A stretch of 38,224 nt of DNA from Acetonema longum DSM 6540 (lineage in GTDB: Bacteria > Bacillota > Negativicutes > Sporomusales > Acetonemataceae). The translations under genes and the position numbers were made by a program. Below the pieces are notes generated by a model. It made no database searches and was not told the origin of the DNA. It saw only the letters and a program-made list of their open reading frames with translations. Positions 34,632-38,224 of this stretch are shown here, in pieces. The stretch is from positions 1 to 38,224 of the forward strand of contig NZ_AFGF01000013.1 in NCBI RefSeq assembly GCF_000219125.1. The letters run 5' to 3'. Each line of letters opens with the position of its first letter. Positions within the stretch are counted from its first letter, which is position 1.

Positions 34632-36719
34632 TTACTCTTCTTCTGTTACTTTATCTTTTTTCGCTCCGGCAATAATTGTTTCGGCGATACGCTGGGGAAC
34701 TTCTTCATAATGAGAAAAATTCATATCGAAACTGCCTCGCCCTTGAGTCAGTGAGCGGAGATGAATGGCGTAATTAAACACCTCTGACAGGGGGACCTGA
34801 GCCTTTACGGCCGACATACCTTTTCCGTTAGGTTCCATGCCCTGAATCCGTCCCCGTTTACCGTTAAGATCTCCTACGACATCGCCCATATAGGTTTCCG
34901 GAACTAAAACGTCCATTTGGTAGATAGGTTCCAGCAGAACCGGCTTCGCCTGCAGCGCACCTTTGCGCAAGGCCATGGTACTGGCAATTTTAAATGCCAT
35001 TTCGGAGGAATCAACCGTATGGTAAGAGCCATCGGTCAGAGTTACCTTTACATCTACCATGGGATATCCCGCCAGAATGCCGCCTGCCAAGGCATCTCGC
35101 ACTCCTTTTTCCACTGCCGGAATATATTGTCTGGGCACAGCGCCGCCAAAAATCGCATCGACAAATTCAAAATCACCGCCAGACGAAAGTGGTTCGAGCT
35201 GCAGCCAGACGTGTCCGTACTGGCCATGACCGCCGCTCTGCTTTTTGTGTTTTCCTTCGATTTTTACATTGCCCCGAATGGTTTCACGATAAGGAATCTT
35301 AGGAGTACTGAGTTTGATTTCAACGCCAAACTTGCGTTTCATCCGCTCAGCCATAATATCCAATTGCAATTCACCTGTTCCGGTCACTAACAGCTGCCTG
35401 GTTTCGGCATCTTTGCGAACCCGCAATGTCGGATCTTCATCAGTCAGGCGGCCCAGGGCACTGCCGATTTTATCCTCATCCCCCTTGTTTTTAGGCTCGA
35501 TGCACATGGTGAACATCGGCTTAGGATACTCCATCCCAGGATAAATAACCGGCTTATCCTTATCACAAAGAGTATCGCCGGTACCGGACTCCTGAAGTTT
35601 GGCAACCACAACAATATCTCCGGCGTTGGCAACTGGCATAGGGTCCTGATTTTTGCCCCGCAGGGCGAAAAGGCTGCCCAATCGTTCCATTTTATCTTTG
35701 GAGGCATTATAGATGGTGCTGTCAGGCTTTAACTGACCCGAGAGCACACGAATATAACTGAGCCGCCCGACAAATGGATCAGCCGTTGTCTTAAACACCA
35801 AAGCGGAAAACGGATCGCTGACCTTTCTTTCCACTGTTTCCTGGGTTAAGGGGTGTTTGCCGACACTCACTTTGGCCGCAGGCGAAGCAATGTTATCTAC
35901 AATCAAATTTAACAGCTGAAAAACACCGATATTTTTCATCGCTGAACCGCACAGCACAGGATAAAACTTGCCTTGCATAATTCCTTTATGCAGTCCTGTG
36001 CTGATTTCCTGTTCCGTCAGCTCTTCACCCTCTAAATACTTGGTAAGCAGCTCATCATCTGTTTCAGCCACCGCTTCAAGCATAGCCTGTCTGGCTTCCT
36101 GGGCTTGGTCGCCCATATCCGACGGAATATCAGTCTCATTATACTGACTGCACTGGCTATTAACCGGGACCAACGCTTTCATTTTAACGAGATCAACAAT
36201 CCCCTTAAAGACAGACTGAGCTCCAATCGGTAACTGAACAGGCACTATGTGTCCGCCAAGCTTTTCTTTCATGGAATTCAGGACGCTATAAAAATCTGCA
36301 TTTTCCCGGTCCATTTTATTAATAAAAGCAATACGCGGTAAATGTAAATCATTCGCATATTGCCATACTTTCTCAGTTTCGACTTCAACCCCCGATGCGG
36401 CGCATAGTACCACCAAAGCTGCGTCAACAGCGCTGAGAGATCCCTTGACTTCAGCCACAAAATCAGCATAACCCGGAGTGTCGACGATATTTATTTTTTG
36501 TCCATTCCATTCACAGGGCGCCAGGGCTGCGCTAATCGTAACCTTTCGGCGTATTTCTTCCGGTTCAAAATCCGTTGTGGATGTTCCGTCATCAACCTTT
36601 CCCAAACGATTGACCGCCCCGGAACTAAAGAGCATTGCCTCGGTCAGGGAAGTCTTACCTGCCCCCCCATGGGCAATGATGCCGACATTTCTGATGTTTT
36701 CACTTTTGTACTCTTTCAA
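34632..36719 (-). CDS. EF-G-like translational GTPase paralogue
   Basis: A 695-aa protein with the five-domain EF-G layout. G1 is AHGGAGKT (residues 16-23) in place of the usual AHIDAGKT, G3 is DTPGYADF with Tyr84 where EF-G has the catalytic His, and G4 is NKMD (134-137). These replacements mark the EF-G-2/EF-G-like branch rather than the housekeeping fusA that sits in the str operon. Domain IV-V motifs (GGHGQYGHVWLQLEP, ALRKGALQAKPVLLEPIY) are intact. It may act as an auxiliary translocase or have a role other than elongation. Start is TTG 36719, 8 bases after GGAGGG. Confidence 0.9.
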   Translation of the reverse strand: MKEYKSENIRNVGIIAHGGAGKTSLTEAMLFSSGAVNRLGKVDDGTSTTDFEPEEIRRKVTISAALAPCEWNGQKINIVDTPGYADFVAEVKGSLSAVDAALVVLCAASGVEVETEKVWQYANDLHLPRIAFINKMDRENADFYSVLNSMKEKLGGHIVPVQLPIGAQSVFKGIVDLVKMKALVPVNSQCSQYNETDIPSDMGDQAQEARQAMLEAVAETDDELLTKYLEGEELTEQEISTGLHKGIMQGKFYPVLCGSAMKNIGVFQLLNLIVDNIASPAAKVSVGKHPLTQETVERKVSDPFSALVFKTTADPFVGRLSYIRVLSGQLKPDSTIYNASKDKMERLGSLFALRGKNQDPMPVANAGDIVVVAKLQESGTGDTLCDKDKPVIYPGMEYPKPMFTMCIEPKNKGDEDKIGSALGRLTDEDPTLRVRKDAETRQLLVTGTGELQLDIMAERMKRKFGVEIKLSTPKIPYRETIRGNVKIEGKHKKQSGGHGQYGHVWLQLEPLSSGGDFEFVDAIFGGAVPRQYIPAVEKGVRDALAGGILAGYPMVDVKVTLTDGSYHTVDSSEMAFKIASTMALRKGALQAKPVLLEPIYQMDVLVPETYMGDVVGDLNGKRGRIQGMEPNGKGMSAVKAQVPLSEVFNYAIHLRSLTQGRGSFDMNFSHYEEVPQRIAETIIAGAKKDKVTEEE

Positions 36720-36777: not shown

Positions 36778-36830
36778 CCTGCTGTGAAAATTCTCTGCCA
36801 ACTTGGAATATTCCTTCTTTTTAAGCCAAA

Positions 36831-36868
36831 AATAATAACCCCCAAACTGATATTTGGCGGTTATTATT
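36831..36868 (-). terminator. Long hairpin ending the ndk-to-spoVM-like gene cluster
   Basis: AATAATAACC/GGTTATTATT (36831-36840, 36859-36868) continues inward with CCAAA/TTTGG after one mismatch. It is only 5 bp past the stop of the SpoVM-like ORF and is followed by TTTGGC on the minus strand. Confidence 0.65.
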
Positions 36869-36873
36869 CTTGG

Positions 36874-36957
36874 TTACTTTTGGTTATTCTTGTAAAACAG
36901 CCGCAATAGTTTTCGTAGCGGCAGTGGCAATGATACAATATAAAACTTCAAATTCAC
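36874..36957 (-). CDS. spoVM: Candidate SpoVM-like spore morphogenetic peptide, 27 codons
   Basis: A very short ORF after fmdB with GGGGG 8 bases before GTG 36957, or TTG 36951 as start. Read from the TTG, it has (M)KFY at 1-4, L8-P9, L12 and R17, all at exactly the positions they hold in the 26-residue B. subtilis SpoVM (MKFYTIKLP..., R17), with hydrophobic or basic residues elsewhere (LRKLLRLFYKNN). SpoVM is an amphipathic peptide that marks the forespore membrane by curvature and recruits SpoIVA to start the coat. Pro9 and R17, reported as important, are kept. A hairpin terminator follows at once. The identity is from memory of one sequence, so it is a candidate. Confidence 0.5.
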   Translation of the reverse strand: MNLKFYIVSLPLPLRKLLRLFYKNNQK

Positions 36958-37024
36958 CGTATCCGCCCCCTTTGACCACAAAGCTATAGTAAAGTATATG
37001 AACACAGCGATCAGGGGGTGACGG

Positions 37025-37237
37025 TTACTTACAGCTGCCGCACCTGTTACCGGAACAAGAACTGCATCCCGAACCGCCAGCGCGACCCGTTCCGGCAAAT
37101 TGGGAAATTAATTTTTGTAGGTTATTATGCCCGCATTTTGGGCAAATAACCGAATGGGGCGCATTGTTCCATTCTATCCCACATATTTTTTCAAATTGGG
37201 CATGGCAGTCCAAGCACTTAAATTCATACAGCGGCAT
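37025..37237 (-). CDS. FmdB family zinc-ribbon protein
   Basis: A 70-aa protein starting MPLYEFKCLDC, the hallmark of the FmdB/CxxC zinc-ribbon family. The zinc site is C8-x2-C11 with C32-x2-C35; the C-terminus is Gly/Ser-rich with four more Cys (58, 61, 66, 69). Function is not established; members have been called putative regulatory proteins. The ATG at 37237 lies inside the end of the adenosyltransferase gene (14-bp overlap), with GGAAGGTG 6 bases before it; an ATG 9 bp upstream is less well placed. Confidence 0.9.
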   Translation of the reverse strand: MPLYEFKCLDCHAQFEKICGIEWNNAPHSVICPKCGHNNLQKLISQFAGTGRAGGSGCSSCSGNRCGSCK

Positions 37238-37736
37238 GGCCTTCACCTTCCACGCGGAATAAAATAAAGCACAGATCAGACAACCGGTTTAACAGTACCA
37301 ACACTTGTTCATTGACCAATTCTTCCCGGGCAAGGGACCAAACCAGACGTTCAGCCCGGCGTGTAACTGTCCGGGCCAAATTAATAGCGGCAGCAGCCCG
37401 GTTATCCCCGGCAATCACGAATTGCTTCAAAGGTGGCAATTGGGTGTCATAAGCATCAATAATCTGTTCGACCCGGCCCACCTGCTCCGCCGTGATCCGG
37501 TTCGGGGCTTCCCCGACACTGGCCAGGTCAGCCATTAAAGACCACAGTAACTTTTGTATTTCATAAATGGTAGCCGCCACATCTTTCGATTGACAAAGAG
37601 AGCGTGCCACTCCCAGGGCAGCATCCATTTCGTCTACTGTCCCGTAGGCTTCTACCCGGAGGCTGTCTTTAGAGACGCGTTGGCCGGTAAAGAGTCCGGT
37701 TGTTCCTTTATCGCCAGTTTTGGTGTAAATTTTCAC
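37224..37736 (-). CDS. Cob(I)alamin adenosyltransferase, PduO/MMAB type
   Basis: A 170-aa trimeric enzyme type that transfers the adenosyl group from ATP to cob(I)alamin, giving coenzyme B12. The ATP site YTKTGDKGTTGL (residues 4-15) and the conserved helix motif ARTVTRRAERL are intact. It starts at GTG 37736 with a GGGGGG site upstream, 26 bp after ndk, and overlaps fmdB. B12-dependent enzymes are not in this window. Confidence 0.94.
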   Translation of the reverse strand: MKIYTKTGDKGTTGLFTGQRVSKDSLRVEAYGTVDEMDAALGVARSLCQSKDVAATIYEIQKLLWSLMADLASVGEAPNRITAEQVGRVEQIIDAYDTQLPPLKQFVIAGDNRAAAAINLARTVTRRAERLVWSLAREELVNEQVLVLLNRLSDLCFILFRVEGEGHAAV

Positions 37737-37762: not shown

Positions 37763-38200
37763 CTAATCTAGCCGATTAATTTCCTTTTCATCAAAATAGA
37801 TTTTAATTTCACGAATGGCGCTCAGCTCACTGTCTGAGCCATGGATTACATTATGACCGATAGTAAGGGCGTAGTCGCCGCGGATGGTCCCCGGCAGCGC
37901 ATCAACCGGATTGGTTGTGCCCATCATGGTACGGACTACTTTTATGGCTTGATTTCCTTTCACTACCATGGCCACAATGGGGCCTGATGTAATAAAATCT
38001 ACCAATCCGTCAAAAAACGGTTTCCCTTGATGCTCTTCATAATGAATCGCGGCTCTTTCCCTGGAGAGATGCAACATTTTCAGAGCGATAATTTTTAATC
38101 CCCGCCGTTCGAAGCGGCTGATGATATCGCCGATAATCCCTTTTTGCACTCCATCCGGTTTAACCAACACCAGAGTGGTGCTTTCCATAGTCAAATCCAT
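37763..38200 (-). CDS. ndk: Nucleoside diphosphate kinase
   Basis: A 145-aa enzyme that balances NTP and dNTP pools by phosphate transfer from ATP. Catalytic phospho-His is H120 in NVIHGSDS; the N-terminal [10 protein letters not shown] and the [13 protein letters not shown] segment are standard. I start at ATG 38200, 6-7 bases after GGGGAGG; an ATG 15 bp upstream overlaps that site. First visible gene of a likely ndk-adenosyltransferase-fmdB-spoVM-like operon; its promoter lies outside the window. Confidence 0.96.
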
Positions 38201-38224
38201 AACAAACCTCCCCATGTGTATTTA

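Follow-up and report, generated by a model that had tools for sequence, protein, structure and literature searches.

SpoVM is a small peptide that anchors the spore coat in Bacillus. Besides the described SpoVM family (PF08183; NF033436/NF011327; B. subtilis SpoVM, PDB 2mvh/2mvj), SpoIVA has other partners in the same base layer of the coat, SipL (PF12673) and SpoVID, which, unlike the peptide described here, are far larger proteins and are unrelated to it in sequence. Galperin et al. (2012) recorded spoVM in all bacilli and in only some clostridia, and left unsettled whether distant versions of the gene exist; their study predates any complete genome of a spore-forming member of the Negativicutes available to them (PMC3533761). 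The accessible parts of the literature that name both SpoVM and Negativicutes contain no report of SpoVM for this class, and an earlier mention is possible.

The window analysed here, a stretch of 38,224 nucleotides from Acetonema longum DSM 6540 (contig NZ_AFGF01000013.1), carries a 27-codon open reading frame that is very probably the genome's own spoVM, a member of a divergent branch of SpoVMs that spore-forming Negativicutes use. This reading is supported by purifying selection on the protein, by its co-occurrence with SpoIVA, by a sporulation-type promoter box at every copy, by a single gap-free register with SpoVM and by the lack of any other SpoVM detected in the class. Against it stand the unmatched SpoVM models, the non-canonical synteny and a -35 element unlike that of spoIVA. 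The locus comprises the following features:
34632..36719, minus strand, EF-G family GTPase of 695 aa (PF00009, PF03764 and others), the downstream neighbour
36826..36873, minus strand, intrinsic terminator hairpin 3' of the peptide gene (-28 kcal/mol, z -7.58)
36874..36957, minus strand, SpoVM-like micropeptide gene of 27 codons with GTG start and TAA stop, MNLKFYIVSLPLPLRKLLRLFYKNNQK
36966..36973, minus strand, Shine-Dalgarno sequence AAAGGGGG, 8 nt 5' of the GTG, read in the sequence
36993..37000, minus strand, -10 element CATATACT of the mother-cell (sigE/sigK) type, a sequence motif
37015..37021, minus strand, candidate -35 element TCACCCC (spacer of 14 nt), weakly resembling the [GT]CACA motif of relatives
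37025..37238, minus strand, FmdB-type zinc ribbon protein of 70 aa (PF09723, 4.9e-14), the upstream neighbour
37224..37736, minus strand, PduO-type cobalamin adenosyltransferase (PF01923, 5.6e-57), the most constant upstream neighbour
37763..38215, minus strand, nucleoside diphosphate kinase, ndk (PF00334, 1.9e-57)

Translation of the frame from 36957 to 36874 on the minus strand yields VNLKFYIVSLPLPLRKLLRLFYKNNQK, followed by the TAA stop. The earlier note had opened this frame at a GTG or TTG after GGGGG; the frame holds, whereas of the two codons GTG 36957, with GGGGG ending 8 nt 5' of it, is preferred over TTG. The start is probably GTG 36957, since nearly all relatives begin with M[KN]-(x)-[LF]-[KR] at the same distance from the Shine-Dalgarno sequence, which in their genes is an equivalent GGAGG or GGGGG. 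TTG 36951 is the less likely start, as it lies 14 nt from the Shine-Dalgarno sequence and the short N-terminal extension of the window peptide is common to its relatives. The terminator hairpin that had been noticed 3' of the stop codon is confirmed and begins about 6 nt after it; similar hairpins follow the gene in many homologues. One relative (L009, 1501-1569) begins in the canonical SpoVM register, ATG-AGA-TTT-TAC (MRFYIMSIPGPLRK), and lacks the N-terminal extension found in the rest of the Negativicutes peptide family.

With the 25-residue peptide as query, matches were obtained in 43 of 60 related genomes (E up to 10); the 30 best-scoring loci reached E-values of 0.0064 or lower. A profile built from 25 family members (profile A1) and run on 300 genomes of the class Negativicutes detected the peptide in 52 of them at E<1e-4, and the next matches begin at E 0.0014. 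Among 348 genomes sampled across the phylum, the same profile matched the genome of the window and no other. A degenerate DNA pattern, searched over 84,980 species genomes, returned 20 loci; those in Sporomusa ovata, S. silvacetica, S. acidovorans, Sporomusa sp. KB1, Pelosinus fermentans, P. propionicus, Propionispora and Lucifera butyrica all belong to Negativicutes, and Bacillota MAGs are also among the 20. Loss of the reading frame in relatives had been named beforehand as a possible refutation; the frame is kept throughout the spore-forming relatives (52/300).

For comparison with SpoVM, 18 canonical sequences of other Bacillota together with that of B. subtilis were collapsed to 13 types. 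Aligned profile to profile, the family matches these types without gaps (hhalign probability 93.7%, E 1.9e-7; z 5.5, equalled in 0 of 100,000 column shuffles), and in ungapped alignment only the register that superimposes K2, Y4, P9, L12 and R17 fits. The family scoring matrix, slid along B. subtilis SpoVM, scores best exactly at K2 (z 5.1, 0 of 3,000 shuffles). As had been noticed from the window, K2, F3, Y4, L8, P9, L12 and R17, counted from TTG 36951, do coincide with B. subtilis SpoVM. The SpoVM N-terminus K2-x-Y4, hydrophobic residues at 6, 8, 12, 15 and 16 and a basic residue at 17 are all found in this gap-free register. Family and SpoVM are also alike in length (22-27 aa), in K/R at position 2 followed by an aromatic or aliphatic residue at 3 and Y4, in hydrophobic residues at 6 and 8, in the invariant P9 (present in all 45 family cores), in L12, a hydrophobic pair at 15-16 and K/R at 17, in an amphipathic helix past P9, and in the presence of SpoIVA alongside. 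In the window peptide the helix after P9 (PLRKLLRLFYK) has a hydrophobic moment of 0.88 (shuffle p 0.006). Residues K2, I6, P9 and I15 are reported to be critical in B. subtilis SpoVM, their mutation being harmful (PMC5607322, PMC12004969). At positions 2, 6, 9 and 15 the family has K/R, M/L/V, the invariant P and L/I/F, so that the chemistry is kept.

The family nevertheless departs from canonical SpoVM in several respects. A further proline occupies position 11 (P-x-P), R13-K14 mostly stand where the canonical peptides have G-G or G-K, K7 is replaced by S7, and two to three residues are usually added at the N-terminus; its locus is another, and no SpoVM model matches it. No match to Pfam or NCBIfam models was obtained for the window peptide nor, at E up to 10, for any of 25 family members (PF08183 and the NCBIfam SpoVM models included), and profile A1 found no match among PDB sequences. 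Intermediate sequences are provided by three SpoVMs of other Bacillota that score above the PF08183 cut-off (L118, L122 and L123), which agree with the window peptide at 9-11 of 19 positions. Those of clostridial type, L118 and L122 (KFYTIKLPKFLAKLLRIFS and KFYTIKLPGFLAKLLRGFL), are identical to the window peptide KFYIVSLPLPLRKLLRLFY at 11 of 19 positions and have LPxxL-x-K-LLR as it does, whereas L123 has R13 like the family; all three are without the P11 of the family.

A SpoVM is expected alongside SpoIVA in spore formers and nowhere else. The Negativicutes peptide follows SpoIVA (PF09547) in this way; SpoIVA scored above cut-off in 51 of the 300 class genomes. Both are present in 50 genomes and both absent from 247, with the peptide alone in two and SpoIVA alone in one; since the genomes of a class are related, these counts are not independent events. 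The two peptide-only genomes (G055 and G061) are drafts, 92-93% complete, and both carry SpoIIIAE, while the sole SpoIVA-only genome (G026) is 58% complete. At the family level the match is perfect, with 19 families having both and 16 neither. The peptide is present in essentially every outer-membraned spore former of the Negativicutes sampled. A search for spoIVA in the genome itself, which had been suggested as a check, retrieved a full-length, 492-aa protein that contains all three Pfam domains and keeps Gly486, a residue considered in connection with SpoVM binding (PMC5607322).

A rival spoVM elsewhere in the same genome had also been raised as an objection. We found no canonical one: PF08183 gave nothing above cut-off and none lies beside rpmB. 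Around rpmB of this genome and of three relatives nothing SpoVM-like was seen, the genome's own contig stopping just past rpmB. A 12.9-bit PF08183 match on contig C239, covering profile positions 3-9, is a chance hit inside an unrelated frame. Across the 300 class genomes PF08183 revealed no credible canonical SpoVM, all hits falling within frames of 469-485 aa; the matches above cut-off in six genomes (L033-L038) were rejected because all of these lie in frames of 481-485 aa. These six cover profile positions 2-13 in a long frame conserved in one genus, a source of false-positive SpoVM annotation. In the phylum sample PF08183 was detected in 18 of 348 genomes, in several barely above cut-off, and clostridial SpoVM may therefore be under-detected elsewhere too. 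The SpoVM identity put forward in the earlier note is supported: the frame is conserved, this genome has spoIVA but no canonical spoVM, and the peptide tracks SpoIVA across the class.

The promoter is another constant feature of the family. A box of the form CATAnnnTA or CATAnAnT lies within 120 nt upstream of all 45 peptide genes (2.85 in shuffles), compared with 6 of 118 control regions, taken from in front of the ndk, adenosyltransferase and EF-G genes at these loci; before EF-G, sporulation-type -10 boxes were found in 2 of 40 upstream regions. The composite element CACA-N14-18-CATAnnnT occurs in 28 of 45 peptide upstream regions (0.08 in shuffles), the window itself matching weakly, and the sigK-like AC-N15-17-CATAnnnTA in 30 of 45. 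A scan of the peptide promoters for the strict sigE consensus with its ATATT -35 element gave 1 of 45, and the spoIVA promoters of the same genomes mostly read GTAATATT-N14-CATATATT or near it, which is of sigE type. The consensus for sigE and sigK elements is that of B. subtilis; judged by it, the boxes of the peptide gene and of spoIVA are both mother-cell type elements. In the loci L003-L056 and at 36993-37021 of the window, the peptide promoters are sigK-like and those of spoIVA sigE. The [GT]CACA -35 element of most copies, unlike the ATATT of spoIVA, could mean control by sigK (late) and not by sigE (early), a distinction that matters because SpoVM acts early; sigE control would perhaps be exerted together with SpoIIID.

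These departures might indicate that the peptide is a functionally altered SpoVM and not a one-for-one replacement, with the kink at P-x-P, the cationic R-K pair in the helix and the sigK-like promoter suiting it to spore formers that have an outer membrane, for instance through late action or recognition of another membrane; we regard this as rather unlikely. We likewise give a low probability, about one chance in ten in our judgement, to a sporulation micropeptide that is made in the mother cell but has a different function, such as a checkpoint or cortex factor of the CmpA kind or a coat peptide made late under sigK, whose likeness to SpoVM would stem from both being short amphipathic membrane peptides. 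The 19-column match could in principle be convergent, and the failure of SpoVM models to recognize the family, the sigK-like promoter in most copies and a gene neighbourhood unlike that of canonical spoVM fit such a peptide. Against it stand the gap-free register, never reached by column shuffling, the SpoIVA-bearing genomes of the class, all of which would otherwise be without SpoVM, and the intermediate SpoVMs of other Bacillota.

Canonical spoVM lies between rpe and rpmB in several cases (L118, L122 and L115). This arrangement, common but not defining, is not found here; the peptide gene is instead located downstream of the adenosyltransferase and fmdB. The order in Negativicutes is adenosyltransferase, with or without fmdB, then the peptide, usually then EF-G, and in many relatives fmdB was not detected near the peptide. 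The ndk-adenosyltransferase-fmdB setting described in the earlier note is confirmed by Pfam, whereas its qualification as unusual does not apply within the class, for which it is the usual place of spoVM. If the gene is indeed spoVM, its position is best read as a relocation from rpe-rpmB to the ndk-adenosyltransferase-(fmdB)-EF-G region. The succession of a small frame, a terminator and EF-G, in the window and in most relatives, would also be compatible with a leader peptide attenuating EF-G. However, the peptide is kept where EF-G is displaced by 1.6-2 kb (L045, L049, L050 and L058) or out of range, with none within 4 kb (L051), its presence follows SpoIVA, and it is preceded by a sporulation-type promoter box of its own, of a kind seldom seen before EF-G; a leader function is thereby largely refuted and highly improbable. 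Conservation, moreover, is at the amino-acid level: in 45 distinct coding sequences the three codon positions have entropies of 1.03, 0.47 and 1.47 bits, lowest at the second and high at the third, and mean dN/dS is about 0.35 among the less diverged pairs. The 27-codon frame is a real micropeptide gene under purifying selection. A chance frame, or a conserved DNA or RNA element read as protein, which its mere 27 codons and the silence of family models might suggest, is refuted by this conservation in 52 genomes of 19 families and retains next to no probability.

As a SpoVM, the peptide would, by homology, be made in the mother cell early in sporulation. Past its invariant proline it would form a strongly cationic, amphipathic helix inserting into the convex, positively curved mother-cell membrane that surrounds the forespore. 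The K-[FVI]-Y-x-[MIVL] stretch at its N-terminus would then recruit and tether SpoIVA, whose polymerization would form the base layer of the coat. P-x-P, R-K at 13-14, S7 and the N-terminal extension, all widespread in the class, may tune the kink and the contact with lipids, and these natural variants (P-x-P, R-K helix and extension) can be used to probe how so small a peptide senses curvature on the micron scale. A divergent spoVM fills a gap for a whole class of outer-membraned spore formers and points to conservation of the SpoVM-SpoIVA pair in Negativicutes although SipL-domain proteins are also present. The family profile is ready for the re-annotation of genomes, and the peptide gene provides a single-gene marker of sporulation capacity in Negativicutes. 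The genome of the window has three matches to the SipL domain (PF12673; G000:C76:35954-36967 and G000:C239:92219-92467), two of which are adjacent, about 770 bp apart.
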